Of a stretch of DNA of 36,313 nt, positions 16,981 to 35,570 are shown in pieces (the stretch's first letter is position 1; each line of letters begins with the position of its first letter). The notes beneath the pieces were generated by a model. The model was not told where the DNA came from. It searched no databases and saw only the letters and a program-made list of their open reading frames with translations. This stretch comes from a virus, in IMG/VR virus record IMGVR_UViG_3300035034_000479, positions 1 to 36,313 of that record; one strand, given 5' to 3'. The position numbers and the translations under genes were made by a program.

Positions 16981-17460
16981 TTACAGCAAGTCGCTGGCCG
17001 GGCGGGCGTCCATGATGGCTTTCACAAGGTCAGCCTTCGTGTTGCCGTCTTCGATCAGGTCCAGCCCTTCGGCCTTCCCTTGGGCGACGATCTTGGCCTT
17101 GGTCATGGCCGTCAGCGCCGCTTCATCGGGGCGTTCGTCTTCGTCTTCGTCTTCGTCTTCTTCGGGTTCAACGGGTTCGGGCGTCTTGACGGTCGAACCG
17201 CCGCTGATCGCGCGAACAACCTTGGCGCCTTCTTCTTCGGTCATCGGCGCAACGGCACCAGCCTTGTAGGGGTGCGCCGCAGGACGTGGACCCTTTTTCA
17301 GATCGTCATATTCATCCTTGCTGCGGGCTTCGAACACGGCACCCGGCTTGATGATCTGAACTTCGGGGGCCTTCGGGGGGATGCCCTTGTTCTTGTCGGC
17401 GGCAACGCCCGGCTTGATCGTGCGGTGAATTTCGGTAATGGCTTTAAGGGTGAGCGACAT
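16981..17460 (-). CDS. FI-position protein with acidic linker and HeH/SAP-like C-terminal domain
   Basis: This gene encodes 159 residues. The N-terminal ~75 residues (SLTLKAITEIHRTIKPGVAA ... AEVQIIKPGAVFEARSKDEY-like) form an unassigned domain. Residues about 93-113 form a highly acidic low-complexity linker of alternating Glu and Asp, encoded by four TTCGTC repeats (17134-17157, plus strand). The end (ALTAMTKAKIVAQGKAEGLD, LIEDGNTKADLVKAIMDA) looks like a small helix-extension-helix (HeH/SAP/Rho-N-like) nucleic-acid-binding domain. In lambda the gene in this place (FI) helps DNA packaging and also has a flexible acidic region. The terminus ASDLL loosely resembles the SLL tails of the replication proteins. 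AGGAAG precedes the start. Confidence 0.7.
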   Translation of the reverse strand: MSLTLKAITEIHRTIKPGVAADKNKGIPPKAPEVQIIKPGAVFEARSKDEYDDLKKGPRPAAHPYKAGAVAPMTEEEGAKVVRAISGGSTVKTPEPVEPEEDEDEDEDERPDEAALTAMTKAKIVAQGKAEGLDLIEDGNTKADLVKAIMDARPASDLL

Positions 17461-22421: not shown

Positions 22422-24584
22422 TTATCCCAAACCCTTCGCCAGTTCCGCCAGACTATACTTGCGCTTCCTGGCCGCGTCAAAGGGCTTGGTTTGCTCGACC
22501 GGATTGAACACCATGTCGTTTTGATCCCATTCCGCAGCCCAGCCGGGCGGGTATTCCCAATGGATGCCCTTCAAATTGACAAAAGGCAACAGGCATGTTG
22601 CGAAATGGTATGAGAACAAATCCCAGCTTTCGTTTCTGAAACGCTTGGGATTGATCCAACCTTTCGCCGGGTCTTTGATTTCGACCGTAAGTTCGGTGTA
22701 AAACGAATCAGCCAAACCGACCGGGAAATTGAGCCGACCACCGGGTTCGGTCCTGTCCAGGGCGTTATTCAAAACGTCCTTTGCCATGTTCGAATTGATG
22801 AACATGACGGGGATTTCACCGCGCGCCCCGGCGTTCTTGTCTTTGCGCTGGGAGTCTGGAAAGCGGATTTCCACATGCGGCGCCGTGGGTGTTGATGACC
22901 CTTTCAACAGCAAGAACCGGCTGGCAAACTCTTGCGACCAGATATATTCGCCCTTGTCTTCCAGCACATCAACTTCGTCATCATCGCCGCGCCGCAGCCA
23001 CCGATAGAAGTCATATGCGTTCATCGTCACGCCTTCCCGGCCACCCGAGTCGCAGACCGTGAACTTGATCTGCATGTGCCGACCGGACTCGTCGTTCAAG
23101 GGGTACGTCTTGCCCAGAACTTCTTCGCCCAACAGCTTCCAATCTTCGGGGTGCGATCCGGGGTTCACCCACAGGCGTTCCCCGTCATCATCGAGCCGCC
23201 GTGACTTCCTGATATCGAACCTGTCTATCAGGTAACGATCCCCGTTCATCGCCACACCCATGACTTGCACCACGAAGCGGTTCTTCTGCACGTCAATGGC
23301 CGCTGTGAGGAACCGCACACCTTCGGGCACCTTGCCAAGCCAATCCTGCTTGGCCGTCGCCTTGATCGTTTCAGGAGATCGCAGGGACGCCAGATTCTTC
23401 GGGATATAGGGCTTGCCCTGATCGGTGTTGATCGTGGATTTCAGCAGCTTTTCAGAGCCGTTGGCTTCATAGGTGCGTTCGGCCACGATGTAGTTGAACA
23501 CCAGCGTTTTCCATGTGGCAAACGCAGCGGCCACGCCCTTCAACCAGAAACTTGCCGAAGTGGACCGGATCGCCACGCCGCGCATTTCGTTGTTCGGCAA
23601 CCAGATTTGGCCGTCTTTCACCCAACGCCCGGCCAAGTTCATTTCGTGCTTACTCGGCATCAGCCCGCCCGCATCATGGGGGTATCGAGTATCGCAATGG
23701 GGGCAGGCCAGTTCAGCCTGTTCCGCCGATTCCATGGCGTCTGCGCTATCGGGATACCGCAACAATTCAAAGTCGGGTTCGAAAGCCCCTTTGCATTTCG
23801 GGTTCACGCAACGCCAATACCAGCGCCGCCGATCCCCGTTGTTGTAAAGCGGGATGATGCCGTCAGTTGTCGGGATCGCTTCATGTGCCGTCGTCGGGGT
23901 GTACTTCGGATCGTCCACTTCAAAGCCGGGTGAAGATTCAGCCACGGTCATGCCGAAAGTCTTGAACGTGGTTGCGCGCTTTCGGGCAAGCGAAAAAGGA
24001 TCGCCTTCTTTGTCCACGTCCTGCGACATGCGATCATAGTCTGTCAGCCAAAGTCGCGGGATCGGCTTTCCCGAAAGTTCGTTGATCGTCGGCCAAGAAA
24101 GCGTCAACAGCATCCCGCTTTTGTAATGCTTATCGAACACGTTGTCGGCATCACGGCTTTGGATTAGCTGGTGTCCAATTTCGGGGCTGTGGCGATGAAG
24201 CCTATCAACCCGTCGCATCGAGAAGTCGCGGGCGGTTGTATTGGACGGGCAAATGACCATCATATCCGCAGGATCGCATCGGGCGCTATATCCGATCCAG
24301 TTCATAACCATGTCAGTTTTGCCGCACTGTGCCGGGCCAACAAAAATCATTGACGTAAATGCCGTGCTATTCAGCAAGTTCATAGGCTCTACAAGATACG
24401 GGGTTTTGTCGTTCGACCAATCGCCAACGAAAGCGCCGGGGTTATTTATCTTCCGATACTTCTCCGCAGCTTCGGAAACCGTAAGCCTTTCCGGTGGCCG
24501 CGCAGCTTCTGCCGATTCAACAACGATTGATTCCAGAGTGTGCGTTCTGACCGGCAATTCCGGCATAGCTATCATCGTGTTCAT
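22422..24584 (-). CDS. A: Terminase large subunit (gpA family)
   Basis: This is a 720-residue packaging motor of the lambda gpA type. The N-terminal approach (ERLTVSEAAEKYRKINNPGA) is followed by Walker A GPAQCGKT (residues 83-90), then MVICPSNTTARDFSMRRVDR. A zinc-finger-like set (CVNPKCKG ... CPHCDTRYP) and the nuclease segment beginning FLTAAIDVQKNRFVVQV, with CDSGGREG, follow. The C-terminus contains ESWDLFSYHFATCLLPFVN. It cuts concatemeric DNA and pumps it into the procapsid through the portal. The start overlaps the upstream stop (ATGA). Confidence 0.93.
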   Translation of the reverse strand: MNTMIAMPELPVRTHTLESIVVESAEAARPPERLTVSEAAEKYRKINNPGAFVGDWSNDKTPYLVEPMNLLNSTAFTSMIFVGPAQCGKTDMVMNWIGYSARCDPADMMVICPSNTTARDFSMRRVDRLHRHSPEIGHQLIQSRDADNVFDKHYKSGMLLTLSWPTINELSGKPIPRLWLTDYDRMSQDVDKEGDPFSLARKRATTFKTFGMTVAESSPGFEVDDPKYTPTTAHEAIPTTDGIIPLYNNGDRRRWYWRCVNPKCKGAFEPDFELLRYPDSADAMESAEQAELACPHCDTRYPHDAGGLMPSKHEMNLAGRWVKDGQIWLPNNEMRGVAIRSTSASFWLKGVAAAFATWKTLVFNYIVAERTYEANGSEKLLKSTINTDQGKPYIPKNLASLRSPETIKATAKQDWLGKVPEGVRFLTAAIDVQKNRFVVQVMGVAMNGDRYLIDRFDIRKSRRLDDDGERLWVNPGSHPEDWKLLGEEVLGKTYPLNDESGRHMQIKFTVCDSGGREGVTMNAYDFYRWLRRGDDDEVDVLEDKGEYIWSQEFASRFLLLKGSSTPTAPHVEIRFPDSQRKDKNAGARGEIPVMFINSNMAKDVLNNALDRTEPGGRLNFPVGLADSFYTELTVEIKDPAKGWINPKRFRNESWDLFSYHFATCLLPFVNLKGIHWEYPPGWAAEWDQNDMVFNPVEQTKPFDAARKRKYSLAELAKGLG

Positions 24585-25288
24585 AGAAGGGACTCCGCTT
24601 CGGCATCAAGTTTCACTTCTGGTATTTGGACATAGGATTCTTCCACGCCGCCGTGCAAGGCCATCAGCGCAGGAAGATCATCGAGTTGCGGCCCGCTCTG
24701 CTTTTCCTTCATCTTCCGAACCAGGGCGTCATAAAGTTCCTGTTGAAGACCGTCCACAAGAACCCGAAGTTTGTCACGCTGCGGTTCTGTCAAACCGACT
24801 TCGGTTTCAAGAGCGTCTTCCCATAGCTGCATGGTGAATTTCAGGGTCTGGAAGGTGCCGCCCAGAACGTCGCGGATTTTGTCGGTGTGCCAAAGCTGAC
24901 CAGCGTTTTCCATCCACTTCTGTTGCTTCAACATGGCATCCCAGAAGGCTTGCTGCATGGTCGAAGGCATCCCGCCCTTCTTGATCGCCTTCAAGAAGTC
25001 TGACGGGCTGACCTTCGGGGGCACCAGATATGGGGCGGCTTCTTTCAAAAGATATGTCCGACCGCGAAGCCCGTTGCCCGTTTCCTTGCCTTCGGTCAGA
25101 ACCGGGCAATCGGAAAGGCGACGTTTCACGTCATCGACTTTCATGCCAAAGACATTCGCCAACCACGCGGCGGTGACACCCGAAAGGGCTTCTTCCACAG
25201 GCGCAGTTTTGGTGTTCTGCCCGCCAATCGGTTGCATCCGGTTTAACTGAACATGATGATCCAACGCGCTGATTTTTCCATTGGTCAT
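24581..25288 (-). CDS. Putative small terminase subunit (Nu1 position)
   Basis: The start at ATG 25288 makes an ATGA overlap with the helicase stop and has GGAG nine bases upstream; an ATG five codons earlier is less likely. This gives 235 residues. Residues about 30-70 (TAAWLANVFGMKVDDVKRRL ... CPVLTEGKETGNGLRGRTYLL) look like the winged HTH of Nu1/DUF1441-type proteins. Helical segments follow (MQQAFWDAMLKQQKWMENAG, EPQRDKLRVLVDGLQQELYD) that could oligomerise. It would bind the packaging site and recruit the large subunit. The C-terminus DAEAESLL matches the acidic SLL tails of four replication proteins in this phage. Confidence 0.75.
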   Translation of the reverse strand: MTNGKISALDHHVQLNRMQPIGGQNTKTAPVEEALSGVTAAWLANVFGMKVDDVKRRLSDCPVLTEGKETGNGLRGRTYLLKEAAPYLVPPKVSPSDFLKAIKKGGMPSTMQQAFWDAMLKQQKWMENAGQLWHTDKIRDVLGGTFQTLKFTMQLWEDALETEVGLTEPQRDKLRVLVDGLQQELYDALVRKMKEKQSGPQLDDLPALMALHGGVEESYVQIPEVKLDAEAESLL

Positions 25289-26805
25289 GCCGCGATTCTC
25301 CATGTGCGACCAAGCCTAGCCTTGACCGCGTTCGTAATTCTATCTTGCGTTATTGTCCGACCTTTCAATACAGACAATACGTTTTCGTCAGCCGTCCCGC
25401 GACTGATAATCCGATGAAGGAACACTTTGTCGCTCTTTTGTCCAGATCGGTGCAGCCGCTTGATGAATTGCAGGTATAATTCAGCCGACCAAGTGAGTCC
25501 GTACCAAACTGCGATGTTCGAACCGAACTGGAAGTTTAGACCATGCCCCGCGCTTGCCGGGTGAGTCAAGAGCATCTTGATTTTGCCAGCGTTCCAATCT
25601 CGCATGTCATTCGGACTATCGCCGTAAACCCTGCAATACGGGAACTTCTTTTTGATCGCGGCTTTGTCGAATTGAAAGCTGTAAGCCACAATTACGGGTC
25701 TGCCATTTGCTTCTTCCATAATGGATTCGAGTGCATCGAGTTTCTGGTTATGGACAGGTATAGCTTCTTTTTCGCTTGTATAAATTGACCCATTTGCCAG
25801 TTGCAGAAGTTTTCCCGTAAGAACGCCGCGATTTACCGCTTCGATATATTCTTCATCACCAGCTTTGTTGACCAATTCAATAGCAGACTCCTTTTCAAAC
25901 TCCCTATAGATACGCATCGCTTTCGGCGGCAACGTGACTTTATGATCTATCTCGATCAAAGGTGGGAGTGAAAGATAATCGTCAGATCGAAGACTGAAAA
26001 ATATGTCGGAAATCCGGCCCATGATTTCTTGTTCCGCGCCGACACGCGGTTCAAAGACTTTGGTGTATCGGTCTTCGATAAACCAACGCTTCTGGTACGC
26101 CGTCATGGACGTGCCCAGGCGCTCCCCGTCTTCAAGCAGGGAAATCGGCCCGTACAGGTCGATCAGCCCGTTTGAGGCCGGTGTGCCTGAAAGTTCCACG
26201 ATCCGCTTAAAACGCGGCCTGTGGGCGCGCAGGATGCCCAATTCAGACAGAGCGGCTTTCTTCCCCGATCTGATCTGTTTCTTGGTCTGGTACACGCGGG
26301 TCATGCCGCGCTTGTGCCTGGACGCTTCATCATAGATCAGCATGTCGAAGGGCCACGCCCGGCCCTGGAATATGTCGTGCAGCCACCGCAGGTTTTCCCG
26401 GTTGATGATCGTGACTTGGGCCGGGGAGTATTTCAGGGCCGCTTGTCGTTCTTCGGCGGTGCCCGTCACCACCCGGAACGTGATATCCCGAACAAAGGCC
26501 CATGTGCGAAATTCTTCCGGCCACGTTTCTTCGGCCACGCGCAAAGGGGCAACGATCAGAGGGCGGCGCACGATGCCAGCACGAATCAACTTCTGCATGG
26601 CGAACAAGGCCGATCCGGTCTTGCCCAGCCCCATTTCAGCGCCAAGCAGAACGCCCGGCAATTCCAGAATCTTGTTCGCCATCCAAATCTGATACTCGCG
26701 CATATCTTCTTCGGTCAGCGTTCTTTCGGGCGGGCCGTACAACAGGTTCAGGGCTTCCTGATCTGTCATAACCTTGTGAGTCACGATCTTCTTCTGACGG
26801 GCCAT
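25285..26805 (-). CDS. SNF2-family DNA helicase/translocase
   Basis: The product is 506 residues with two RecA-like domains. Motif I is GAEMGLGKT (55-63), motif Ia is VAPLRVAEETW, motif II is DEAS (159-162, where DEAH is more usual), motif III is LSGTPASN (205-212), and motif VI is QFIKRLHRSGQ near 450. This single-unit SNF2 helicase is common in phages with the PolA/DUF2815/DUF2800 replication set. It is presumed to remodel DNA forks or remove proteins from DNA. The start overlaps the VRR-NUC stop (TAATG), and the stop overlaps the terminase small subunit start. Confidence 0.92.
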   Translation of the reverse strand: MARQKKIVTHKVMTDQEALNLLYGPPERTLTEEDMREYQIWMANKILELPGVLLGAEMGLGKTGSALFAMQKLIRAGIVRRPLIVAPLRVAEETWPEEFRTWAFVRDITFRVVTGTAEERQAALKYSPAQVTIINRENLRWLHDIFQGRAWPFDMLIYDEASRHKRGMTRVYQTKKQIRSGKKAALSELGILRAHRPRFKRIVELSGTPASNGLIDLYGPISLLEDGERLGTSMTAYQKRWFIEDRYTKVFEPRVGAEQEIMGRISDIFFSLRSDDYLSLPPLIEIDHKVTLPPKAMRIYREFEKESAIELVNKAGDEEYIEAVNRGVLTGKLLQLANGSIYTSEKEAIPVHNQKLDALESIMEEANGRPVIVAYSFQFDKAAIKKKFPYCRVYGDSPNDMRDWNAGKIKMLLTHPASAGHGLNFQFGSNIAVWYGLTWSAELYLQFIKRLHRSGQKSDKVFLHRIISRGTADENVLSVLKGRTITQDRITNAVKARLGRTWRIAA

Positions 26806-27080
26806 TACAATTCCAAAATCTGCCGCGCACGGGCGAAGGTTTCAACCACATGCACTTCGGCACCAGCCGCTTTCATATCATCGCGGTTGCGGCCCTGGAT
26901 ACGGGCCAGATGGCCTTTGCCGTCAGGCCGCTTGAACTCGATCCACACCGTTCGGCCCCCTTTGATGAACACGCGATCCGGGGCGCCACGACGCCCCGGC
27001 CACGCGACCTTTCGAACAAACCAGCCATCGGCTTCGGCTTCTTCGATGATGGTCAATTCAAGATATGCTTCAAGCGCCAT
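26805..27080 (-). CDS. VRR-NUC domain nuclease
   Basis: ATG 27080 gives 91 residues, a normal length for a stand-alone phage VRR-NUC protein; the same frame extends upstream only over sequence that is out of pattern. Motifs are RRGAPDRVFIKGGR (Asp35), VWIEFKRP (Glu48, Lys50) and IQGRNRDDMKAAGAEVHVV (Gln62), the PD-(D/E)XK catalytic layout. Such phage enzymes are thought to cut branched DNA such as Holliday or flap structures. It overlaps the DUF1653 gene by 11 bases and lacks its own strong ribosome site, so it is probably coupled. Confidence 0.85.
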   Translation of the reverse strand: MALEAYLELTIIEEAEADGWFVRKVAWPGRRGAPDRVFIKGGRTVWIEFKRPDGKGHLARIQGRNRDDMKAAGAEVHVVETFARARQILEL

Positions 27081-27375
27081 CGTCAACAGGGGGTCTGCGC
27101 AGGCCGGTTGTGGGTGCCGTGGTGACGGGCTTACCGGTTTTTGGCAGGCCGACAGCCCCGTGACGTGGCTTTTCGTTGAAGTGGGTAAACCGACCGTCGA
27201 AAAATTCTTCCACTGGCCGGGTCCATGTATGCCGTTCTGTTCCCGCGTCTTGTGCGAACGTCTGATACACCACGACCATTCCCAAAGTCGCTTCGACCTT
27301 TGCGAAACAAACAATCTGGTAAAGATGCCCTGTTTTCGTGTGGACCCAAATCAGCCTTTGATATTCTTTTTTCAT
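27070..27375 (-). CDS. DUF1653-like small protein
   Basis: The product is 101 residues. The first ~70 (RLIWVHTKTGHLYQIVCFAK ... EATLGMVVVYQTF ... WTRPVEEFFDGRFTHFNE) match the DUF1653 pattern: 'H K/T G x Y x I ... A ... E ... VVYQ ... W x RP ... F x D G R F'. This small SH3-like domain is found in bacteria and phages and its function is unknown. The C-terminal 30 residues are Pro/Thr-rich and overlap the VRR-NUC start. AAAGGA lies eight bases before the ATG. Confidence 0.8.
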   Translation of the reverse strand: MKKEYQRLIWVHTKTGHLYQIVCFAKVEATLGMVVVYQTFAQDAGTERHTWTRPVEEFFDGRFTHFNEKPRHGAVGLPKTGKPVTTAPTTGLRRPPVDDGA

Positions 27376-27378
27376 TGT

Positions 27379-29493
27379 TCAATCCTTTATGAACATTTGT
27401 GAAGTGAAACCTTCGGAACCCAAAGGCATATCGGGCGCCCATTTTGGAGGTTCTTCCATACACTCGATAAGGGTTTTCAAATCCCTTTCCGCGAATTGGA
27501 TTTTGCTTAGGCTCACAATTTGGTCATGCACATGAAGCCTGATATCCAACCCGCGCTTATCTGCCAGCTTCATTCCATGTGCCAGAAGGTCGCGCGAAAT
27601 CGCTTGGTCAGCGTTTTCTGTCAACTTGCCACCGTGGGTACTCAGCCGCACCCATTGCTTCTTGTCGTTCAATCCATCGTAAGTGATCGTCGGTATCATG
27701 TCGCCCCACGGGGCGCGCTTGCGCTCGATCCGGGGCCTCACATAATGCAGCGCCCGACCGGACGGCAAATTCATTCGCATGAAGTTCCCGACAATATCAA
27801 AAGTGACAACACCATAACCGGAACCATAAGACGTTGGCTTTCCGGTTTTGATTGTGCGCTTGGCGGCGTTCTCGATGCCTTTCCAGTACGTTTTGACTTC
27901 GTGAAACTCCGTTCTGAAAGTCGTGATCGAGTGCGCCGAATCTTCCTTCGTGAAATGTTTGACGCCCATATTCCAAGCATAGCCAAGAAGTCCGGTCGCA
28001 CCCCGTTCGCCGGTCTTCCTGTCTATGTATTCGTCGCCCGGCCCCATCTGGTATCCGGCACCAAGAGTACCGGGTTTTGCGATAGTCCGTTTCGACTTGT
28101 CGCCAAGCACTTTGTATTCGTGCCAGAGTTGTTCGTATGGGATTCCATAAAGCAGTTCCGCAAAGGCGATGTAGGGATCGCGCTTCAATCGGTACACGTT
28201 CAAAATCTTTTCGCAAGCTGCCAGCCATCCCAGGGTCCGGTTCTCGATGGCGTTCAAATCGGCGTCACAGAAGATCATGCCTTCGGGGGCTTGCGCAGCG
28301 GGCCGGATCGTGGACGCCAGCACATCGAACACGTTGTCGTAAAGCAGCACCATCGCTTCACTGTCCAACACTTCGACATTGCGCGCATGTTCAACGATGT
28401 TCTTTTCCAGATACCATTCGGGCCGGGGCAGGTTCTGCGGCTGAAAAATCCGACCGGCCCAACGCCACGTCCTTTGCGCGCCGCAGAATTGCAGCGTGTT
28501 GCGCAGGTTGCCATCGGCACCCACGGCCATCAGGATCGCCTGATACTTCTTGATGGAAGTTCGCGCCGTTTCAAGCCGCAAATAGAGAACTTCTTTCAAA
28601 TCCTCATTCATCAAGTATTCTGACCATAGCTGATCGGACCAGCGTTCGGGCTTGTTCTTGAAGTAATCCAGCGAAGTCGTAATGCTGGATTTCTGGCAGT
28701 CATCAAAGATATACCCGTTCGCCTGCATCCACGGCAAAAGCTGTGCAGTCGAATTGGGGTTGTCCAGCCCTGTGATCTGACTCATAACGGCAAGCTGATC
28801 TTCCAACACCCGTTCGTATGTCTTCCAAGCGTTCTCGACCATCCGCATGTTCATCGGCAGACCGGCGCGGTTGACCTTCTGATCTAAGCGCCACAAATCC
28901 CATTCGTGATCAGGCATGGGTTGAAATTGTAAAAGACGGCGACGAATAGACGTTTCTGCCACAACGTCGCGACGGTTATATTCCAGATAATTTTCCCAAT
29001 CAGGAAGGTCATCGTACCAATGTGTTCGAATAACCCGACCAGCATCAGCTTTGCGACGGGAAATCTTAGTCTTGGAAAACTTATTGATAAGGCGAGTGCC
29101 GCTTTTGTCTTTCAAGTGTTCGTCATCAATGTTGATGATAGGGCCAGCATTTTGTAGTTTACCTGGTAACGAACACGCCATTCCCAAAATCATCGTGTCA
29201 AACCATTGCTCTAATTCAACAGGTAATCCTAGAACATGCTGCGATATCTGCATTTCAAATGCACTGTTCCAAGCCCATTTTTCAACGGCTGGATCGTGAT
29301 ACGCTTCAAGAAATTCTTTCGGTATGGATTCGCCCTGCGCATGATCCCATTGAACCACGTCACCATAATTTATCTGGTATGCACACATCAAAACTTCCGT
29401 AGAAGAATGATTGGCGTAAACGTCACTTCCGACTTTTAACAAATCAGTTTCTGAAAACGTTTCATAATCAAACGATATGAAATCTTTTGCCAT
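27379..29493 (-). CDS. polA: DNA polymerase, family A with 3'-5' exonuclease
   Basis: I prefer ATG 29493 (AAGG upstream; MAKDFISFDYETF is the usual family start), giving 704 residues; a GTG at 29586 is possible. Exonuclease motifs are FDYETF (Asp9, Glu11), WNSAFEMQI and EYNRRDVVAE. Polymerase motif A is CDADLNAIENR (~410), motif B is KRTIAKPGTLGAGYQMG (~465), and motif C is LHVHDQIV (~656). Motif C normally reads HDE; here the codon is CAA, so Gln replaces the second acidic residue. The phage-type enzyme with a short exo domain and no 5' nuclease usually travels with DUF2815 and DUF2800 genes, as here. It copies the phage genome. Confidence 0.93.
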   Translation of the reverse strand: MAKDFISFDYETFSETDLLKVGSDVYANHSSTEVLMCAYQINYGDVVQWDHAQGESIPKEFLEAYHDPAVEKWAWNSAFEMQISQHVLGLPVELEQWFDTMILGMACSLPGKLQNAGPIINIDDEHLKDKSGTRLINKFSKTKISRRKADAGRVIRTHWYDDLPDWENYLEYNRRDVVAETSIRRRLLQFQPMPDHEWDLWRLDQKVNRAGLPMNMRMVENAWKTYERVLEDQLAVMSQITGLDNPNSTAQLLPWMQANGYIFDDCQKSSITTSLDYFKNKPERWSDQLWSEYLMNEDLKEVLYLRLETARTSIKKYQAILMAVGADGNLRNTLQFCGAQRTWRWAGRIFQPQNLPRPEWYLEKNIVEHARNVEVLDSEAMVLLYDNVFDVLASTIRPAAQAPEGMIFCDADLNAIENRTLGWLAACEKILNVYRLKRDPYIAFAELLYGIPYEQLWHEYKVLGDKSKRTIAKPGTLGAGYQMGPGDEYIDRKTGERGATGLLGYAWNMGVKHFTKEDSAHSITTFRTEFHEVKTYWKGIENAAKRTIKTGKPTSYGSGYGVVTFDIVGNFMRMNLPSGRALHYVRPRIERKRAPWGDMIPTITYDGLNDKKQWVRLSTHGGKLTENADQAISRDLLAHGMKLADKRGLDIRLHVHDQIVSLSKIQFAERDLKTLIECMEEPPKWAPDMPLGSEGFTSQMFIKD

Positions 29494-29636
29494 TCGCGAT
29501 ACCTTGCGTTTATATTTTGCTGCGACCGGGCTTTCCGATCCTTCGGTTCTGGTTTGGTCCACCTTCCCCCTACTGCCCGGTTTCACACCCTGCCGCAGCA
29601 GGCCGGGACCGAAGCCCCAGCCTATCCTTTGAGGGC

Positions 29637-30293
29637 TTACAGCAAGCCGCTTTCGTCTTCCTGTTCTTCCTCGGGTCCGTCATCCTGACCAAGATCAGCA
29701 GCATCGCCAACCATGTCGTCAGTGAACTTGTCGTCGGCATTGGCCGGGGCCGCACCGAAGGCATCGCCGTCACGCAGAAACTGCACGATTTCGATACTGG
29801 CGTTGATCCGCTTGCCGTACTTGTTATCCTGTGCCCACAGGCGGATCAGAGCGTTCACATAGCACCCGCTGTAGGGGGCCATTTTCTGCCCCGCCACGGC
29901 TTCGATCCAGCTTCCGGTCTTGGCATCCTTGCGCGGCGTGATGATCTGTGGTGGCCGCGTCACAGGGGCGGCGGCAGACACATACAGCATCCCCTCATAC
30001 CCATCATAGGTTTCCAGATCGCCGTCACGCAGGCAAATTTTTTCGGGTTTCAGCTTGGGCCAGTCTTTCGGGTTGCTGCCCCACTTCTTGCCTTTGGCCT
30101 GATCGGCGGCGGCTTTCACGTTGGCAAGGTTGTTGAACTTGTCGCCCTTCTTCGGAATCAAGAAGGTACAGTTGTACGTTTCGCGCATCGAGCCGTCATC
30201 GTTCTCCTGTTCCTGCGGCTGGAACAAGTGCGCAAACGAAAGTCGCACGTCACGAAGCAGAACTTCGCCAATCACTTCTGGTTTTTCAGCCAT
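29637..30293 (-). CDS. DUF2815 single-stranded DNA-binding-like protein
   Basis: The product is 218 residues. The residues VLLRDVRLSFAHLFQP, ETYNCTFLIPKKGDK, then MLYVSAAAPVTRPPQIITP, and GCYVNALIRLWAQDNKYGKR match DUF2815, an OB-fold family equated with phage ssDNA-binding proteins (gp2.5-like) because of its genome context and acidic tail. The last ~25 residues are strongly acidic and end EDESGLL, similar in style to the acidic C-terminal tip of other SSBs that recruits partners. A GGAG site precedes the ATG. It sits between the nuclease and polymerase genes. Confidence 0.88.
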   Translation of the reverse strand: MAEKPEVIGEVLLRDVRLSFAHLFQPQEQENDDGSMRETYNCTFLIPKKGDKFNNLANVKAAADQAKGKKWGSNPKDWPKLKPEKICLRDGDLETYDGYEGMLYVSAAAPVTRPPQIITPRKDAKTGSWIEAVAGQKMAPYSGCYVNALIRLWAQDNKYGKRINASIEIVQFLRDGDAFGAAPANADDKFTDDMVGDAADLGQDDGPEEEQEDESGLL

Positions 30294-30303
30294 GTCATTT
30301 CTC

Positions 30304-31572
30304 CTAAAGCAGACTGTCAGTTTCTTCGCCCATTAGGGCATCCAACCGCGACATGCGGTCAGGTTTCGGATCGCGGCCATCCGTAGTCGGAACAAGCTGC
30401 GGCTTGGGTTCACCTTTTGCAACGAAATGATCGAACTTCTTTCGGTACGCAGCTTTGCCCACCCAACCCTCAACTTGCGTTGGGGATAAGAGTTTCTTCG
30501 TATAGGCGTCTTCTTTGCCCAACTGTTTCATTAAGACGATTTCCGCTTTGTCATCGTCTATCCAAGATCGCGGTGGATTTCTGCCGTCAACGAGCATCAT
30601 GCCTAGTGGCGGCTTTCCGTTCTCTGCATCGGAATACGCCTTTGCATGAATACGGTCATGGAATTTCTTTATCATATCCCAATGCAAAAGGAATTGGGAT
30701 ACCGCCTTCGGTGACATGACTTCCGGCATATCCATTTCGGCGTTTTCATCAAACTGCCGTTCCAATTCCTCATTCGTAACATCGAGTTTGGAAAGCACAA
30801 GATCGCGTTCCGCCGGGCACTTCCTGAATTGCGCCGCAGCACAGAACTTGCACTGATCGGGGCCGGGGATCAAGGGCGCATCGGGTTCGCGTGTGGCCGC
30901 AGCATCCTTCTTGATCTTGGCACCTTCGGCCAGGATCGTTCCCAGATCGGTCTTCCACAGCCCACCACCACCGGGCGCACGGGGCTGTTCGATCACGATC
31001 CAGACGGCGATACCATCTTCCCAAGGGTCATTCACGTTGCCGCCCTTCTGGATATGATCGTCTTCGAAATCCGCCGCAGCAAAGGTTGACCAACAGCCCA
31101 AGATATAGAGAATAGCCTGATCGTTCATTTCCGGTTGGACCGGGACGCCAGCGCCCCACTTCCAATCGAACACCACGATCCGGCGGTTTTCCAGATCGAC
31201 AATACAGGCATCAGACGTTCCGAACTCGCCTTCGCCAAGCCACGCCGAAAGGTCCAGCTTCTGTTCGACATACATTTCGGCGCAGTCGCCCATCAACGAC
31301 TCAAGGAAGTCTAAACCGGGCAACATTTTCCGCGCCATTTCAAGCGTGAACTCGATCAGGCCGTGTTGTTCGACCGTGCTTTTGCCACCGACCATCGTGT
31401 GAGGGTCAACGCCCAAGTCTAAGCTGATCGCGGCGAACTCATGGAAGACAGTTCCATACGCGGCTTCGATACCGGCGGTGTTCGGCAGATCGCGTGTCAT
31501 GCGAACAGAACCGGGGCACTTGCGATATCGGTGGGCCGATGACGGCCCTAGCTGCGAATGGAGTCCCGGCAT
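30304..31572 (-). CDS. DUF2800 Cas4/RecB-like PD-(D/E)XK nuclease
   Basis: The product is 422 residues. The N-terminus (LGPSSAHRYRKCPGSVRM ... AAYGTVFHEFA) and the core GTSDACIVDLENRRIVVFDW, KWG and NDQAILYIL give catalytic candidates His44, Asp121, Asp136, Lys138 and the QxxxY motif (Gln152, Tyr156). Cys19 with Cys241, Cys244 and Cys252 (CKFCAAAQFRKC) matches the four cysteines that hold an iron-sulphur cluster in Cas4/AddB-type nucleases. It probably processes DNA ends for recombination-dependent replication. The C-terminus is GEETDSLL. A GGAG site precedes the ATG. Confidence 0.9.
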   Translation of the reverse strand: MPGLHSQLGPSSAHRYRKCPGSVRMTRDLPNTAGIEAAYGTVFHEFAAISLDLGVDPHTMVGGKSTVEQHGLIEFTLEMARKMLPGLDFLESLMGDCAEMYVEQKLDLSAWLGEGEFGTSDACIVDLENRRIVVFDWKWGAGVPVQPEMNDQAILYILGCWSTFAAADFEDDHIQKGGNVNDPWEDGIAVWIVIEQPRAPGGGGLWKTDLGTILAEGAKIKKDAAATREPDAPLIPGPDQCKFCAAAQFRKCPAERDLVLSKLDVTNEELERQFDENAEMDMPEVMSPKAVSQFLLHWDMIKKFHDRIHAKAYSDAENGKPPLGMMLVDGRNPPRSWIDDDKAEIVLMKQLGKEDAYTKKLLSPTQVEGWVGKAAYRKKFDHFVAKGEPKPQLVPTTDGRDPKPDRMSRLDALMGEETDSLL

Positions 31573-31579
31573 GTTCGAT

Positions 31580-31813
31580 TTACTCCAACGACTTTTTCAG
31601 GTTCGCAATTTCGCCAGCGTACAAGTCGATTTCTTCTTCGACCGAATACTTTTCTTCAATCATCCCGATCCGCGTGTTTTGCAGATCGGAAATCCGGTTG
31701 TCGATTGCCTCAAGTTGACGATCCATCCCGGCCTTTTGCGCTTTCAGTTTCAGCACAAGGTCTTCGCGTAAAGCGATCAGCTTTTCCGGCGAGATTTTGC
31801 TTTTCTTGTCCAT
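31580..31813 (-). CDS. Small coiled-coil protein (77 residues)
   Basis: The product is almost entirely charged heptad-like helix (LIALREDLVLKLKAQKAGMD, then RQLEAIDNRISDLQNTRIGM and IEEKYSVEEEIDLYAGEIAN), predicting a parallel or antiparallel coiled coil. There are no catalytic motifs. AAAGGA lies nine bases before the ATG, and the next gene starts eight bases after its stop. It is unrecognised; by position it could be an accessory factor of the DUF2800 nuclease or a replication adaptor. Confidence 0.75.
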   Translation of the reverse strand: MDKKSKISPEKLIALREDLVLKLKAQKAGMDRQLEAIDNRISDLQNTRIGMIEEKYSVEEEIDLYAGEIANLKKSLE

Positions 31814-31831
31814 GTCAGTTGTCCTTTGAAG

Positions 31832-31864
31832 AAGGCGTGGGGCTTTGAAGCAACCCCACGCCTT
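31832..31864 (-). terminator. Hairpin in early operon (attenuator or processing site)
   Basis: An 11-bp perfect inverted repeat (AAGGCGTGGGG / CCCCACGCCTT) with an 11-base loop lies between the first and second leftward genes. The minus-strand 3' side is followed by CTTC rather than a run of T, so full termination is unlikely. It may attenuate transcription, acting as a control point for the whole leftward train, or stabilise the first transcript. Confidence 0.55.
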
Positions 31865-31879
31865 TGAAAGATGGACAGA

Positions 31880-32317
31880 TCAGAGCAACGATTCGCCGCC
31901 GGATTGTTCTTCTTCTTCGGCGCCATCGAACTCCGGGGTTTCCCCGGCTTCATACTGCGCCAGATAACCCAACGCTTCGGTGAAATTGGCCGCGTCAATC
32001 AGCGACACCTTTTTCGCGCCGAAATAATCCACGATGGATTTCACCTTGTCCTTCGCGGCTTCCCGGTCATCTTCGTCACCGGCTTTCAGGAAAGCGCCGA
32101 ACTTCGCAACGAAATCATCAACCGTCATTTCTTTCGGTTTGGCTTTCGCGGCGGGCTTTGCGGCGGCGGCAGGCTTTGCAGCGGCGGCGGGCTTTGCGGC
32201 GGCGGCAGGCTTTGCAGCGGCGACAGACTTGCCGGAGGAAGTTGCGATGGCATCAAGGCGCGCGGTCTGTTCCTTGATCGCGGCTGTGAGGGCTTGGATA
32301 TCGTCTTCGAGGGCCAT
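31880..32317 (-). CDS. First leftward gene: Ala-Lys-Pro repeat protein with acidic tail
   Basis: ATG 32317 (AAAGGA seven bases upstream) gives 145 residues; a TTG five codons earlier is less likely. Residues 1-30 form a short helix (DDIQALTAAIKEQTARLDAI). Residues 32-61 are five tandem six-residue units of the type AAAAKP, like the basic flexible tails of H1-like or HU-like DNA-binding proteins. Residues about 64-125 are a compact helical domain (MTVDDFVAKFGAFLKAGDED ... VKSIVDYFGAKKVSLIDAAN). The end is acidic and terminates GGESLL. The family is unknown. Its place first in the early operon and its tail suggest a DNA-associated replication or regulatory role. Confidence 0.75.
   Translation of the reverse strand: MALEDDIQALTAAIKEQTARLDAIATSSGKSVAAAKPAAAAKPAAAAKPAAAAKPAAKAKPKEMTVDDFVAKFGAFLKAGDEDDREAAKDKVKSIVDYFGAKKVSLIDAANFTEALGYLAQYEAGETPEFDGAEEEEQSGGESLL
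32135..32224 (-). repeat. In-gene 18-bp tandem repeat encoding AAAAKP units
   Basis: Five 18-bp units encode VAAAKP, AAAAKP three times and AAKAKP. The DNA alternates between two near-identical spellings (GGCTTTGCGGCGGC and GGCTTTGCAGCGGC on the plus strand). The copy number could change by slippage and lengthen or shorten the linker. Confidence 0.85.
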
Positions 32318-32341
32318 TTGGCATCCTTTCAATCAGAATCA

Positions 32342-32355
32342 GGGGCACATGCCCC
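32342..32355. promoter_or_regulatory. 14-bp GC-rich palindrome in leftward leader
   Basis: GGGGCA and TGCCCC flank a two-base centre. The site lies just downstream of the expected start of the leftward transcript and upstream of the first gene. The loop is too short for a stable RNA hairpin, so a protein-binding site is the better guess. Confidence 0.35.
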
Positions 32356-32364
32356 GGAACCCCT

Positions 32365-32392
32365 TTGTTATCTACAACAACAGCATTGTCAA
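32365..32392 (-). promoter_or_regulatory. Candidate leftward early promoter
   Basis: On the minus strand a perfect TTGACA (32392-32387) lies 16 bases from TAACAA (32370-32365), about 48 bases upstream of the first leftward gene. The -35 box overlaps the -35 box of the rightward promoter, making a compact divergent switch. The -10 match is weak. Confidence 0.5.
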
Positions 32393-32414
32393 CAACCTTT
32401 TGACTGTGTATAGG
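32386..32414 (+). promoter_or_regulatory. Candidate rightward promoter for the HTH and primase-helicase genes
   Basis: TTGTCA (32386-32391) and TATAGG (32409-32414) are 17 bases apart. Transcription would start near 32421 and keep the ribosome site AGGAG (32430-32434) of the HTH gene. A second overlapping pair, TTGACT (32400) and TATGAA (32423), also has 17-base spacing, but it would start past that ribosome site and so is less likely. Confidence 0.55.
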
Positions 32415-32422
32415 TCACAGTC
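32402..32422. promoter_or_regulatory. Operator-like palindrome over the rightward promoter
   Basis: GACTGTG and CACAGTC form a perfect 7-bp inverted repeat around a 7-base spacer containing the TATAGG -10 box. A dimeric HTH protein binding here would block the rightward promoter. The adjacent Cro-like gene is the obvious candidate for autoregulation. This is an inference from position. Confidence 0.55.
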
Positions 32423-32443
32423 TATGAACAGGAGTATCAAGGA

Positions 32444-32695
32444 ATGGCGACTTTTCTTTCACCAAACGAAGCAGGCACCGAACTTCACCGTTTGATCCTG
32501 GTGGCCGTGCCACCGAACCCGGAAGGTGCGAAGACGATCACCCACGCAGCGAAGTGCATGGGTATCAACAAGGCGACGATCTGGCAATGGATCAAGCTGG
32601 ACCGGATCCCCCCCACGCGGGCGCGTGAAATCGTGGAAATGGGCCAGGGCCGGGTCAGTCTCGACCAACTCCACCGTTTCGTCTACGCTTCTTGA
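32444..32695 (+). CDS. Cro/YdaS-like HTH transcription regulator
   Basis: The product is 83 residues. Residues about 30-65 (ITHAAKCMGINKATIWQWIK) form a helix-turn-helix, followed by IPPTRAREIVEMGQGRVSLD. This follows the YdaS/Cro pattern of 'AA ... G ... S/A-x-W-Q-W ... V/IP ... RA ... IE ... G RV'. It is the first gene of the rightward operon, divergent from the leftward replication train, with a palindrome across its promoter. It likely represses one or both divergent promoters. No partner CI-type repressor is seen in the window. AGGAG sits nine bases before the ATG. Confidence 0.82.
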   Translation: MATFLSPNEAGTELHRLILVAVPPNPEGAKTITHAAKCMGINKATIWQWIKLDRIPPTRAREIVEMGQGRVSLDQLHRFVYAS

Positions 32696-32789
32696 TTCTG
32701 GACACCGGGCAAGCCTGACAGCTTAACCCAGATTCTGGCCTAAATCCCGCCGCTTGCGTCGGGGTAACAACCTTCGGCGCGGGGCACTC

Positions 32790-35570
32790 ATGGCAAATAC
32801 CAACACCAAAATCATTCACTTTTCGAGGGGGCGAAAACAGAACCTTGGCAAAGTGAAGAACCTGACAGTCGGCCTACCGGCCTTCATAGAGTTGTTCAAG
32901 ATACCCCTTCAAACCCCTGAAACATTTGCAGAATACCTGAAAATGACAGACGCGCAACAGAGCGCGTTGAAGCAGTTGAACGGGTTCTTCTACCGATCAC
33001 AGGTCACAGGCGGGCGACGGGTCAAGGGCGCGGCCAAACCCGCCGATATAGCGACCTTGGACTTCGACCATGCAACCGTAGGTTTTCTAAACCGGATCAA
33101 GAAGGGCCTGATTCTCCGGGGCATCAAGTTCATCGTTCACAGCACCCGGCGGCACACGCCAGAGAGCCCACGACTCCGAATGATCGTGTTTTTGAAGACG
33201 CCCGTAAACAACGATATCTACGGTGCCGTAAGCCGGATTTTGGCTTTCAGTATCGACCCCGAAATGGAAATGATCGACCTTGTTTCGTTCCGCACGGAAC
33301 AGATGATGTATATGCCAACGATCAGTTCCAATATCAAATATGAGTTCTACGAATCACCCGGATCAAAGTTGCTTGATTGGGAAGTGATGCTTGAAGACTT
33401 CTCGAATGAGAACGGCGATTGGACCGATCTTGACAACCTGCCAAAAGCGCCGGGTGAAACGATCCGAAATACCGCAGACAAGGCCGAAAACCCCGAAGAC
33501 AAAGAAGGCCCGGTTGGCGATTTTTGCAGAACGTGGAATGTGATCGAGGCGATTGATTACTTCGATCTGCCCTATCAAGCCGTTGATGAATACTCGACCA
33601 AGCCCCGATACACCTACACGGGCGGTACGACGCGCAACGGAGCCATTGTCGAAGACGATGGGCTGTTCCTGACCAGCTATCACGGCTCGGACCCTGTTGG
33701 GGGCCGTACCGTGAACGCTTGGGATTTGGTCAAGGCCCACAAGTTCGGCGATCTGGACGCGCAAGAAGACACCGACACGCCCATGGGCAAGCGGCAGTCG
33801 TGGAAGGCGATGCTGGACTTGGTGAAGGAAGACAAGAACTATCTGCGTTCTGTCATGCAGTCGAACTATGACATGCGGGCGATCTTCGATGATCTGGATG
33901 AAGAAACGCTAGGGATCGTTCATCAGGAAGTGGGGGATGGCCTTGATGCCGCGCAACCATCCCCCGGAAGACCCACCAGTGACGAAAGACCCTTCACGGG
34001 CGAATCTATAGCCGATGACGGGGTTTTAGACAAGGACGCTCTTGATATTTTGGGCGTAATACCACGGGATGATGACGACTTCGACATTTTGGGTCTGTCA
34101 GAGATTCCCCGACGATCAGAAACGGCCATTGTTCGGGTCTTGCCGCCGGTCGAAGATGGATGGTTCACCAAGCTGGAATGGTCCGGTCAGCAAATCCTGA
34201 ACAGCCTGCCAAATATCACTTCGATCCTGCAAAATGATCTGCGGCTTCGCGGGTGCATCGAGTATAACGATTTCCGCCGAACCATCGTCACGCGCAAGGC
34301 GTTGAAGACCAAGCTGCCGATGGTGCCGAAGGTCGAAATCAAAGACAAGGTGCATGGCGATATGTGGAACGACACGATGACCACATATGCTCGAACATTG
34401 CTCGAAACGGCCAACGGCAAAGGCAACGCCGGATACGGCATGAGGGTTTCGGACAGGGACATAAACGGGGCGATCAACACCACGGCAATGCGGTGGCGGT
34501 TCCACCCGATCAAGGACGCCATAGAAGGTCATGTGTGGGATGGGATCGAGCGGGCTGAAACCCTGTTCATAGACTTCCTTGGGTGCCCTGATACCCCGTA
34601 CACGCGCGCTGTGTGCCGTACATGGCTTCTGGCGGCTGTGACGCGCATCTATGAACCCGGCCACAAGTTCGACTTCGTGCCGATCCTGGAAGGCGCCCAG
34701 GGTATCCGCAAATCGACCTTCATCAGAACCCTTTCCCTTGGGTTCGCCGGAAACCTGACGGCCAGTTTCCACGATTCGAACAAGCTGATCGAACAAATCA
34801 CAGGGCGCTGGATCATCGAGATTCCAGAACTCGGCAACATGGGCCGATCCGTGATCGAAGACGCCAAGGCGTTCTTCTCGATGACCGAAACCACGTTGCG
34901 ATTGGCATGGGAAAAGCGGGCCGACGAATACAAGCGGCAATGCGTCTTCATGGGTTCGACCAACAAAGAAAATTACCTGACCGACACGACCGGCAACCGC
35001 CGCTTCTGGCCGATCAAGGTCATGGCCGAACAGATCGACACAGAGCGCCTTGAAGCGGTCATGCCACAGGTATGGGCCGAAGTCTTGGTGATGTACCATG
35101 CGGCCCGTGAGGCGCAGCCCCACGGCGATCTTCCGCTGTATCTGACCGGGGCCGAAGCACAGGCCGAAGCGTCCGACAACCAATCGCAGCGGCAACAGGA
35201 TGACGACGCAACGGTGTGGGCTGGCATGATCGAAGACTTCCTGAACACACCCTTCAAGACGACGCCGGAAAGCAAGTCATGGCTGTTCATCGAGCGCACA
35301 TGCTATTTGCAAATTATGAAGGAAGTTCTCGAATTGAGAACCATCCAACAGCCGAAAGGGCTGTACGAAACGATCAAGCGGACCATGGGTTTGATCGGTT
35401 GGGAATTGGGCGAAAAGACCGTGAGGCTTCCAGTGTACGGCCCTCAAAAAGCCTTCGTGCGGAAACGCCCGATTAGCGCCCACAACCGGGCGAAGCTGAT
35501 CCGAGAACATATCGACCGGATCAGCTTCAAATCGGGGGATGAAGATGATGACCCCGAAAGCCTCTTGTGA
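32790..35570 (+). CDS. Primase-polymerase-like and VapE/SF3-type helicase fusion
   Basis: ATG 32790 with GGGG five bases upstream gives 926 residues; a TTG 12 codons earlier has no such site. The N-terminal third looks like an archaeo-eukaryotic primase domain: IATLDFDHATV (Asp91, Asp93 as metal ligands), FIVHSTRRHTPESPRLRMIV (His117) and later FRTEQMMYMPTIS. The C-terminal half is a VapE (virulence-associated E) ATPase with Walker A GAQGIRKST (635-643), Walker B-like RWIIEIPEL, sensor GSTN (722-725) and TGNRRFWPIKV. It should prime and unwind at the phage origin. It is transcribed opposite to the rest of the replication genes. The last residues are DEDDDPESLL. A terminator follows directly. 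Confidence 0.9.
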   Translation: MANTNTKIIHFSRGRKQNLGKVKNLTVGLPAFIELFKIPLQTPETFAEYLKMTDAQQSALKQLNGFFYRSQVTGGRRVKGAAKPADIATLDFDHATVGFLNRIKKGLILRGIKFIVHSTRRHTPESPRLRMIVFLKTPVNNDIYGAVSRILAFSIDPEMEMIDLVSFRTEQMMYMPTISSNIKYEFYESPGSKLLDWEVMLEDFSNENGDWTDLDNLPKAPGETIRNTADKAENPEDKEGPVGDFCRTWNVIEAIDYFDLPYQAVDEYSTKPRYTYTGGTTRNGAIVEDDGLFLTSYHGSDPVGGRTVNAWDLVKAHKFGDLDAQEDTDTPMGKRQSWKAMLDLVKEDKNYLRSVMQSNYDMRAIFDDLDEETLGIVHQEVGDGLDAAQPSPGRPTSDERPFTGESIADDGVLDKDALDILGVIPRDDDDFDILGLSEIPRRSETAIVRVLPPVEDGWFTKLEWSGQQILNSLPNITSILQNDLRLRGCIEYNDFRRTIVTRKALKTKLPMVPKVEIKDKVHGDMWNDTMTTYARTLLETANGKGNAGYGMRVSDRDINGAINTTAMRWRFHPIKDAIEGHVWDGIERAETLFIDFLGCPDTPYTRAVCRTWLLAAVTRIYEPGHKFDFVPILEGAQGIRKSTFIRTLSLGFAGNLTASFHDSNKLIEQITGRWIIEIPELGNMGRSVIEDAKAFFSMTETTLRLAWEKRADEYKRQCVFMGSTNKENYLTDTTGNRRFWPIKVMAEQIDTERLEAVMPQVWAEVLVMYHAAREAQPHGDLPLYLTGAEAQAEASDNQSQRQQDDDATVWAGMIEDFLNTPFKTTPESKSWLFIERTCYLQIMKEVLELRTIQQPKGLYETIKRTMGLIGWELGEKTVRLPVYGPQKAFVRKRPISAHNRAKLIREHIDRISFKSGDEDDDPESLL

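Follow-up and report, generated by a model that had tools for sequence, protein, structure and literature searches.

Shared C-terminal tips on unrelated replication and packaging proteins of a Casjensviridae-like phage: a possible docking tag

The single-stranded DNA-binding protein (SSB) of bacterial hosts has an acidic tail with a hydrophobic tip, DDDIPF, which recruits partner proteins. In phage T7 the terminal Phe of the SSB, gp2.5, is reportedly essential. The gp2.5 tail is implicated in contacts with the polymerase and the primase-helicase (PMC5686142), and the tails of T7 gp4 bind two basic patches of the polymerase gp5 (PMC12593628). The ends of gp2.5 and gp4, EDGDF and NDTDF, have the tip DF in common; by the strict acidic-tail criterion used here just two more of 52 T7 proteins are tailed, and these show other tips. 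The SSB of phage Enc34 (ORF6; DUF2815; PDB 5odj/5odl) has an acidic tail whose last eleven residues are disordered in the crystal, and the portions of that study at hand treat the tail for the SSB only, with no mention of other Enc34 proteins sharing it (PMC5686142). Here we describe five unrelated proteins with nearly the same acidic C-terminal end in one IMG/VR virus record, IMGVR_UViG_3300035034_000479 (36313 bases, the whole of which is called the window), and compare these ends with those of related phages. The five genes are as follows.

24581-25303, minus strand: TerS (phrog_141), tail DAEAESLL at 24584-24607; profile match, end read directly.
29637-30293, minus strand: SSB (DUF2815, phrog_112, Enc34/T7-type ssDNA-binding), tail EEEQEDESGLL at 29640-29672; profile and AlphaFold2/PDB matches.
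30304-31572, minus strand: DUF2800 / phrog_69 exonuclease, tail GEETDSLL at 30307-30330; profile match.
31880-32332, minus strand: Ala-Lys-Pro (AKP) protein of 150 amino acids, acidic tail EEEEQSGGESLL at 31883-31918; end read directly.
32754-35570, plus strand: primase-helicase (VapE-like, phrog_256), tail DEDDDPESLL at 35538-35567; profile match.

The tip is SLL on four of these proteins and GLL on the SSB (codons AGC GGC TTG CTG). Ser-Leu-Leu is written TCC CTT CTA in TerS (end LDAEAESLL), AGT CTG CTT in the DUF2800 protein, TCG TTG CTC in the AKP protein and AGC CTC TTG in the primase-helicase. The initial annotation of this DNA had listed the five ends and their codons, and re-reading of the window found them exact. 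It had also stated that family A polymerase (PolA), the SNF2 helicase and the VRR-type nuclease are without the tail, which holds in the window. Among 292 stop-to-stop open reading frames (ORFs) of at least 60 codons, overlapping ones counted, eight end in LL and five in [SG]LL, and the five are exactly the genes listed. They stand alone by this measure, but a protein ending ASDLL, set aside at first, belongs with them by comparison with relatives, as described below. The ends had been attributed to peptide-level selection and not to repeated DNA, and this is supported because the codons differ while unrelated, non-homologous families agree; where tip residues are identical the codons are the same in 75 of 137 cases, against 61 expected from codon usage (near relatives included).

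Relatives were found by scanning viral contigs with the SSB and with PolA, three such scans being those of the best 80 matches; scans of viral contigs with DUF2800 alone or TerS alone gave no relatives. SLL is not kept in the first 44 viral loci found to have an SSB homologue (identity 31-49%). Many of their SSB and DUF2800 proteins, and a part of their AKP, TerS and primase proteins, have acidic plus hydrophobic ends; such ends are absent from PolA and from most SNF2 and VRR proteins. In 50 dereplicated Casjensviridae-like genomes the five families tend to share one tip per phage, and the tip differs from phage to phage, with SLL, DLI, DEV, DL, GL and LLG among those seen. Enc34 has an EV tip on five of five (four DEV, one EEV), namely on SSB, primase, DUF2800 protein, ORF3 and TerS. 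AVP3 has EEL or EDL on all five, SS2019XI has DL on four of four, its TerS lying outside the stretch fetched, and BcepNazgul has GL on four of five. Four of the five Ruegeria V16 proteins end in LLG, LLG, ILG and LLA, TerS ending instead in LDV. Contig L056 shows LLG or LLS on four proteins, with a one-residue shift in all four; L062 shows SLV, SLV, DLV and DLV, and in L049 all five proteins end in Ile. Thus, the Ser-(x)-Leu-Leu motif of the initial annotation stands for the window but not for relatives, where each phage lineage has its own short tip. That annotation had taken unrelated ends in relatives as an argument against a shared tail; the residues do differ, but since the ends tend to agree within each relative, the objection applies in letter only.

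Several rows of this comparison need comment. The AKP rows of BcepNazgul and AhaSv, both untagged, were assigned by place only, and an AKP profile match in KPN_BP (ending EGLV) was excluded, being absent from the annotated table used. The TerS of AchV4 is outside the stretch fetched. DPAAGL ends with differing codons are found on four BcepNazgul proteins (L126: 1348-1641, 2227-2940, 11888-12370 and 38749-39417), and the TerS of BPP-1 ends DPAAGLV.

The agreement within phages was compared with a null in which each family's ends were shuffled among genomes 2000 times, so that composition was kept. The genome set consisted of all loci with a TerS homologue, the named Casjensviridae, and L056, L058 and L074, which is 63 including the window; the last three were added after their tips had been seen, and the rest were chosen independently of tails. 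Dereplication dropped 13 that were >75% identical to another, and 48 of the 50 remaining genomes have at least two of the five families; assignments of AKP and VRR by hidden Markov model (HMM) are permissive. Within genomes, 0.398 of 372 pairs have the same last residue, against a shuffled mean of 0.157 (maximum 0.220), and 0.245 have the same last two, against 0.037 (maximum 0.075). When only acidic-tailed proteins are taken (199 pairs, 41 genomes), the values are 0.613 against 0.253 for the last residue and 0.402 against 0.072 for the last two. The excess stays with one random genome per clade (32, 16, 9 or 5 clades), the observed mean being reached by 0.004 of shuffles at most. Tips that are alike within a phage and different between phages lend support to the earlier suggestion of a common partner for the tails.

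The tail is not limited to the five families originally named; the set also takes in the protein ending ASDLL and, in some phages, SNF2, methyltransferases, RusA and ParB. A recurrent extra carrier is the product of the gene that immediately follows that of the major capsid protein; in the window it is this one.

16981-17460, minus strand: post-capsid protein, end ASDLL, sixth carrier; gene next after the major capsid gene, relatives compared.

The label 'FI-like' given to this protein refers to position only; it has no family match at E 0.001, the weak matches found being at 0.007-0.01. Post-capsid ends were compared in 17 phages (the window, four named phages and 12 further), with the gene picked by place. 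These phages are not dereplicated and include near relatives (L057/S-ESS1, L144/L145); the ORF taken in L056 is not the longest listed (112 amino acids, offset 83; elsewhere 30-91), and that in V16 is the annotated gene, not the longest ORF. In 13 of 17 cases the last two residues are also found among the five ends of the same phage (shuffled mean 1.9, P 5e-5), or in 12 of 16 without L056; in 9 of 17 they equal those of the SSB (null mean 1.0). Agreement with TerS and with the primase, at 4 of 16 in both cases, is significant for the last two residues (P at most 0.001); for the last residue alone, at 8 of 16 and 6 of 16, it is not (P 0.05 and 0.07). Several post-capsid proteins have basic residues near the end, and none of three in annotated records passes the strict acidic criterion. 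It is therefore the tip that is common, and not charge alone.

A scan for each phage's own tip was made on the coding sequences (CDS) fetched, which are 56 of 82 annotated features in Enc34, 58 of 83 in V16, 56 of 75 in BcepNazgul and 48 of 54 in S-ESS1. The patterns were drawn up after the five tips were known, and some matches may be due to chance (S-ESS1 head-tail adaptor, SMI). Own tips are found on 8 of 56 CDS in Enc34, 8 of 58 in V16 (including two methyltransferases and a helix-turn-helix (HTH) protein), 11 of 56 in BcepNazgul (including RusA, ParB, SNF2 and three unknown genes) and 6 of 48 in S-ESS1. In BcepNazgul the primase (AGCGL) and SNF2 (ATAAGL) carry the tip without a strictly acidic tail. 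Over 16 annotated phages, which include two near-identical pairs, acidic tails are found on 52 of 73 client proteins versus 16 of 319 others (13 of 275, plus 3 of 44 polymerase, VRR and TerL proteins); tallied apart are SNF2 (3 of 16), methyltransferases (2 of 5) and post-capsid proteins (0 of 3). In the same phages the last two residues equal those of the SSB in 27 of 57 clients versus 10 of 319 others. Adjacent pairs of unknown genes in PspYZU01 (L128:14954-16071) and Phobos (L129:491-1605) have tips of their own phage's kind, EDLI and EDLL; these genes may be unrecognised replication or packaging factors.

Agreement of ends is also found outside Casjensviridae. Of 57 dereplicated loci, most of them from Gram-negative phages and with Bordetella phage BPP-1 among them, 22 have SSB and DUF2800 proteins with the same last residue (null 9.3, P 2e-4) and 9 with the same last two (null 3.8, P 0.005). 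Ends of the same two proteins show no such agreement in the loci from the PolA scans, mostly Firmicutes prophages (7 of 81 dereplicated, null 4.7). The Gram-negative and Firmicutes labels are our own assignments, the latter by record title.

The five genes lie in or beside a replication module with the order AKP protein, DUF2800 exonuclease, T7/Enc34-type SSB, family A polymerase, VRR-NUC-type nuclease, SNF2 helicase, TerS and TerL. Divergent from it are the primase-helicase and an 83-amino acid gene homologous to an HTH gene at the same place in relatives. The gene order is that of Enc34, which has one extra small gene, ORF4. The closest named phage found is Synechococcus virus S-ESS1 of the Casjensviridae, with PolA 56% and TerS 45% identical. 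Judged by module, gene order and nearest named phage, the window phage appears to be Casjensviridae-like. The S-ESS1 record (L046, L123; NC_052968) has polymerase and SNF2 each split over two overlapping CDS, and its post-capsid gene (L123:2337-2729) is unannotated in NC_052968; these look like frameshifts in the record.

The window SSB matches PF10991 (E 1.7e-34), and its AlphaFold2 model (mean pLDDT 91) matches the Enc34 SSB (PDB 5odj/5odl) and T7 gp2.5 (1je5). It resembles the Enc34 protein in family, in its acidic disordered tail and in the phage family to which it belongs. The tail of the model is lower in confidence (mean 57-61 over the last two blocks), and therefore no docking is read from it. 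The AKP protein consists of an N-terminal helix, the Ala-Lys-Pro linker, a helical domain and the acidic tail. It has no Pfam family at E 0.01, and its AlphaFold2 model (mean pLDDT 76) has no PDB match at E 0.001 or better. The linker DNA at 32148-32230 is an 18/36-base tandem repeat with 4.6 copies of 18 bases, and linker length varies among relatives.

The shared ends can be looked at as a C-terminal docking tag, recognised by a single partner in co-evolution with the phage, and we put the probability of this at roughly two in three. A common reader would be the simplest explanation of shared tips. The ends of SSB, DUF2800 nuclease, AKP protein, primase-helicase, TerS and post-capsid protein, mostly acidic, would fit one pocket on this partner, which would contact the last two to four residues and the free carboxylate. 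Co-evolution of the partner with the phage would let the tip drift between lineages and stay alike on the clients within a phage. Binding of the tails would bring the proteins of replication, end processing and packaging together at one place on the replicating phage DNA, where clients may compete for the reader and replace one another, as has been proposed for the tails of gp2.5 and gp4 on T7 DNA polymerase. The peroxisomal PTS1 signal and PDZ ligands are also short C-terminal peptides on unrelated proteins that are read with the free carboxylate; the analogy is one of logic only, and these systems are unrelated to the phage tips.

A number of observations weigh against a common co-evolving reader. 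A nearest-relative control, in which 12 genomes are higher, 12 lower and 5 tied, does not reach significance. Close relatives share tips, and thus the tip is a clade-level property; independent changes of tip are fewer than genomes, and at the 16-clade threshold one clade holds 29 of 48 genomes. By the strict criterion tags are present on 30 of 38 AKP, 21 of 46 DUF2800, 39 of 48 SSB, 34 of 46 TerS and 24 of 34 primase proteins, and three of 50 genomes have no strictly tailed protein: L088, L150 and L056, the LLG/LLS tips of the last failing the criterion. L088 and L150 are without any tailed protein among the five. TerS and primase are untagged in PspYZU01, as are DUF2800 and TerS in E21; the tips of pCB2051-A and AhaSv are largely unshared, and tips within a phage are often similar and not identical (LI/LV/LM). 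In addition, partial correlations between divergence of the tip and of candidate readers (34 genomes) are 0.01 to 0.23 and single out no reader, the highest being with TerS, which is itself tagged.

Tips differ among phages of one host order, which suggests that the reader would be phage-encoded. Proteins of the window to be considered for this role are the following.

27379-29586, minus strand: family A DNA polymerase, without tail, candidate reader on the model of T7 gp5; profile match.
25285-26805, minus strand: SNF2-type helicase, without tail in the window, candidate reader; profile match.
26805-27152, minus strand, start codon provisional: VRR-NUC-type endonuclease (phrog_93), without tail in the window, candidate reader; profile match.
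22422-24584, minus strand: TerL, without tail, candidate reader; identified by its place and through homologues annotated as TerL in named phages.

By presence, the phage-encoded candidates are SNF2, the VRR-NUC-type nuclease, the SSB core and TerL. An SNF2 HMM match and a permissive VRR-NUC-type match are each found in 50 of 50 genomes, the window included. The SSB core is present in 48 of 50, and a TerL homologue in 41 of 50, many loci being short and perhaps stopping before TerL. SNF2 is itself tagged in some phages (e.g. BcepNazgul, AVP3, MA11 and PspYZU01). The SSB core is a possible reader because the C-terminus of Enc34 SSB sits in the groove of a neighbour in the crystal (PMC5686142).

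The phage family A polymerase is an unlikely reader, although it had been the first hub suggested. Tails would dock on its basic patches as gp4 tails do on gp5 (PMC12593628), and in the window an SSB of T7 type occurs together with a family A polymerase. PolA ends are RKD/KKD/RKE-like and untagged in nearly all rows, a short match in L036 ending EDLI. However, PolA has no match in 8 of 50 genomes, and all seven of these that were inspected carry a phrog_1252 polymerase instead. Shared tails are kept without a PolA match, clearly in X2_30, L001, L056 and L074 and loosely in AchV4; PolA is thus not obligatory, and the role would have to have been taken up separately by two unrelated polymerases. 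The phrog_1252 genes lie in the module (L001:6796-8775, L004:6119-8134, L056:10899-12821, L074:10804-12825, L130:8217-10178, L136:11694-13739 and L137:10203-12146), and two of these polymerases end tip-like, in EESLI and EQELV.

It is improbable that the reader is a host protein, e.g. the sliding clamp or a partner of host SSB. The SSB of one phage contig (L031:206-826, IMGVR_UViG_3300038696_000018) ends DADDDIPF and so has the bacterial SSB tip, but it is alone in this among SSB rows, the window SSB ending DESGLL; the L031 TerS is without a tail. A conserved host pocket would be expected to keep tips alike, whereas Enterobacterales phages show DEV (Enc34, SP-088), DDL/EEL (MA11), SLI/DLV (KPN_BP) and DDI/DDM (E21), and Pseudomonas phages DL (SS2019XI) and LI (PspYZU01). 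No evidence was found for the host clamp as hub, another partner named in the initial annotation. The bacterial SSB tail is likewise acidic with a hydrophobic tip, but there one tail recruits many readers, whereas here many tails probably meet one.

It is very doubtful that the tails have no common partner and that each only mimics DNA inside the protein that carries it, so as to limit non-specific binding to DNA. The clients are mostly DNA-related proteins, and Enc34 SSB minus its last 21 residues gains dsDNA binding, the traceable C-terminus being that seen in the neighbour's groove (PMC5686142). Mimicry accounts for acidity but not for agreement of the last two residues across unrelated proteins, and the tip also occurs without a strictly acidic tail, as in the post-capsid proteins and the primase and SNF2 of BcepNazgul.

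Degrons include short C-terminal signals, and some tips are small or hydrophobic at the end (LLA, DLA); a proteolysis signal for the timed removal of replication proteins is nonetheless highly improbable, as tips vary among phages of related hosts (DEV, GL and DL included) and are also found on the post-capsid protein. Next to no weight can be given to chance, to composition, to common ancestry or to the copying of gene ends as DNA: codon identity is somewhat above expectation and the nearest-relative control is negative, but within-family shuffles preserve composition, the signal stays with one genome per clade, the carriers match different families, and codons differ both in the window and among the BcepNazgul DPAAGL ends.

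A common reader co-evolving with the phage, as favoured here, is best compared with the T7 tail system. The window phage has an SSB fold of gp2.5 type, an SSB and a primase-helicase that share acidic tail and tip (EDESGLL and DDPESLL, in place of DF in T7), and, like most relatives, an untagged family A polymerase. It differs in having six client families, which include a nuclease, TerS and the post-capsid protein. The aromatic end of T7 is replaced by Leu in the window and by aliphatic residues in most relatives; moreover, the tip changes by lineage and the family A polymerase is not obligatory. No description of tail sharing across phage replication and packaging proteins was found in the literature searched, which covered few subscription journals. 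The SSB tail of the DUF2815 family is already known; what we rate as new is the sharing across replication and packaging proteins, as a variant of the T7 type.

It is tempting to go further and to see the tip as a phage-specific address tag, in which one co-evolving phage reader serves about six to eleven unrelated clients, gathers replication, recombination, methylation and packaging proteins, and tells the phage's own factors from those of the host or a rival phage. This extension, drawn from protein ends, is tentative and falls somewhat short of an even chance. If true, a short C-terminal code would set membership of the phage replication and packaging assembly, DNA packaging would be physically tied to replication, and new genes would join the assembly by acquiring the tip. 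The principle of the T7 tail would widen from two proteins to six or more. Clients could be found from protein ends and functions guessed for tagged unknown genes, and a single pull-down could find the reader; cultured Enc34 and chi-like phages are at hand as test systems, with one SSB structure already solved.

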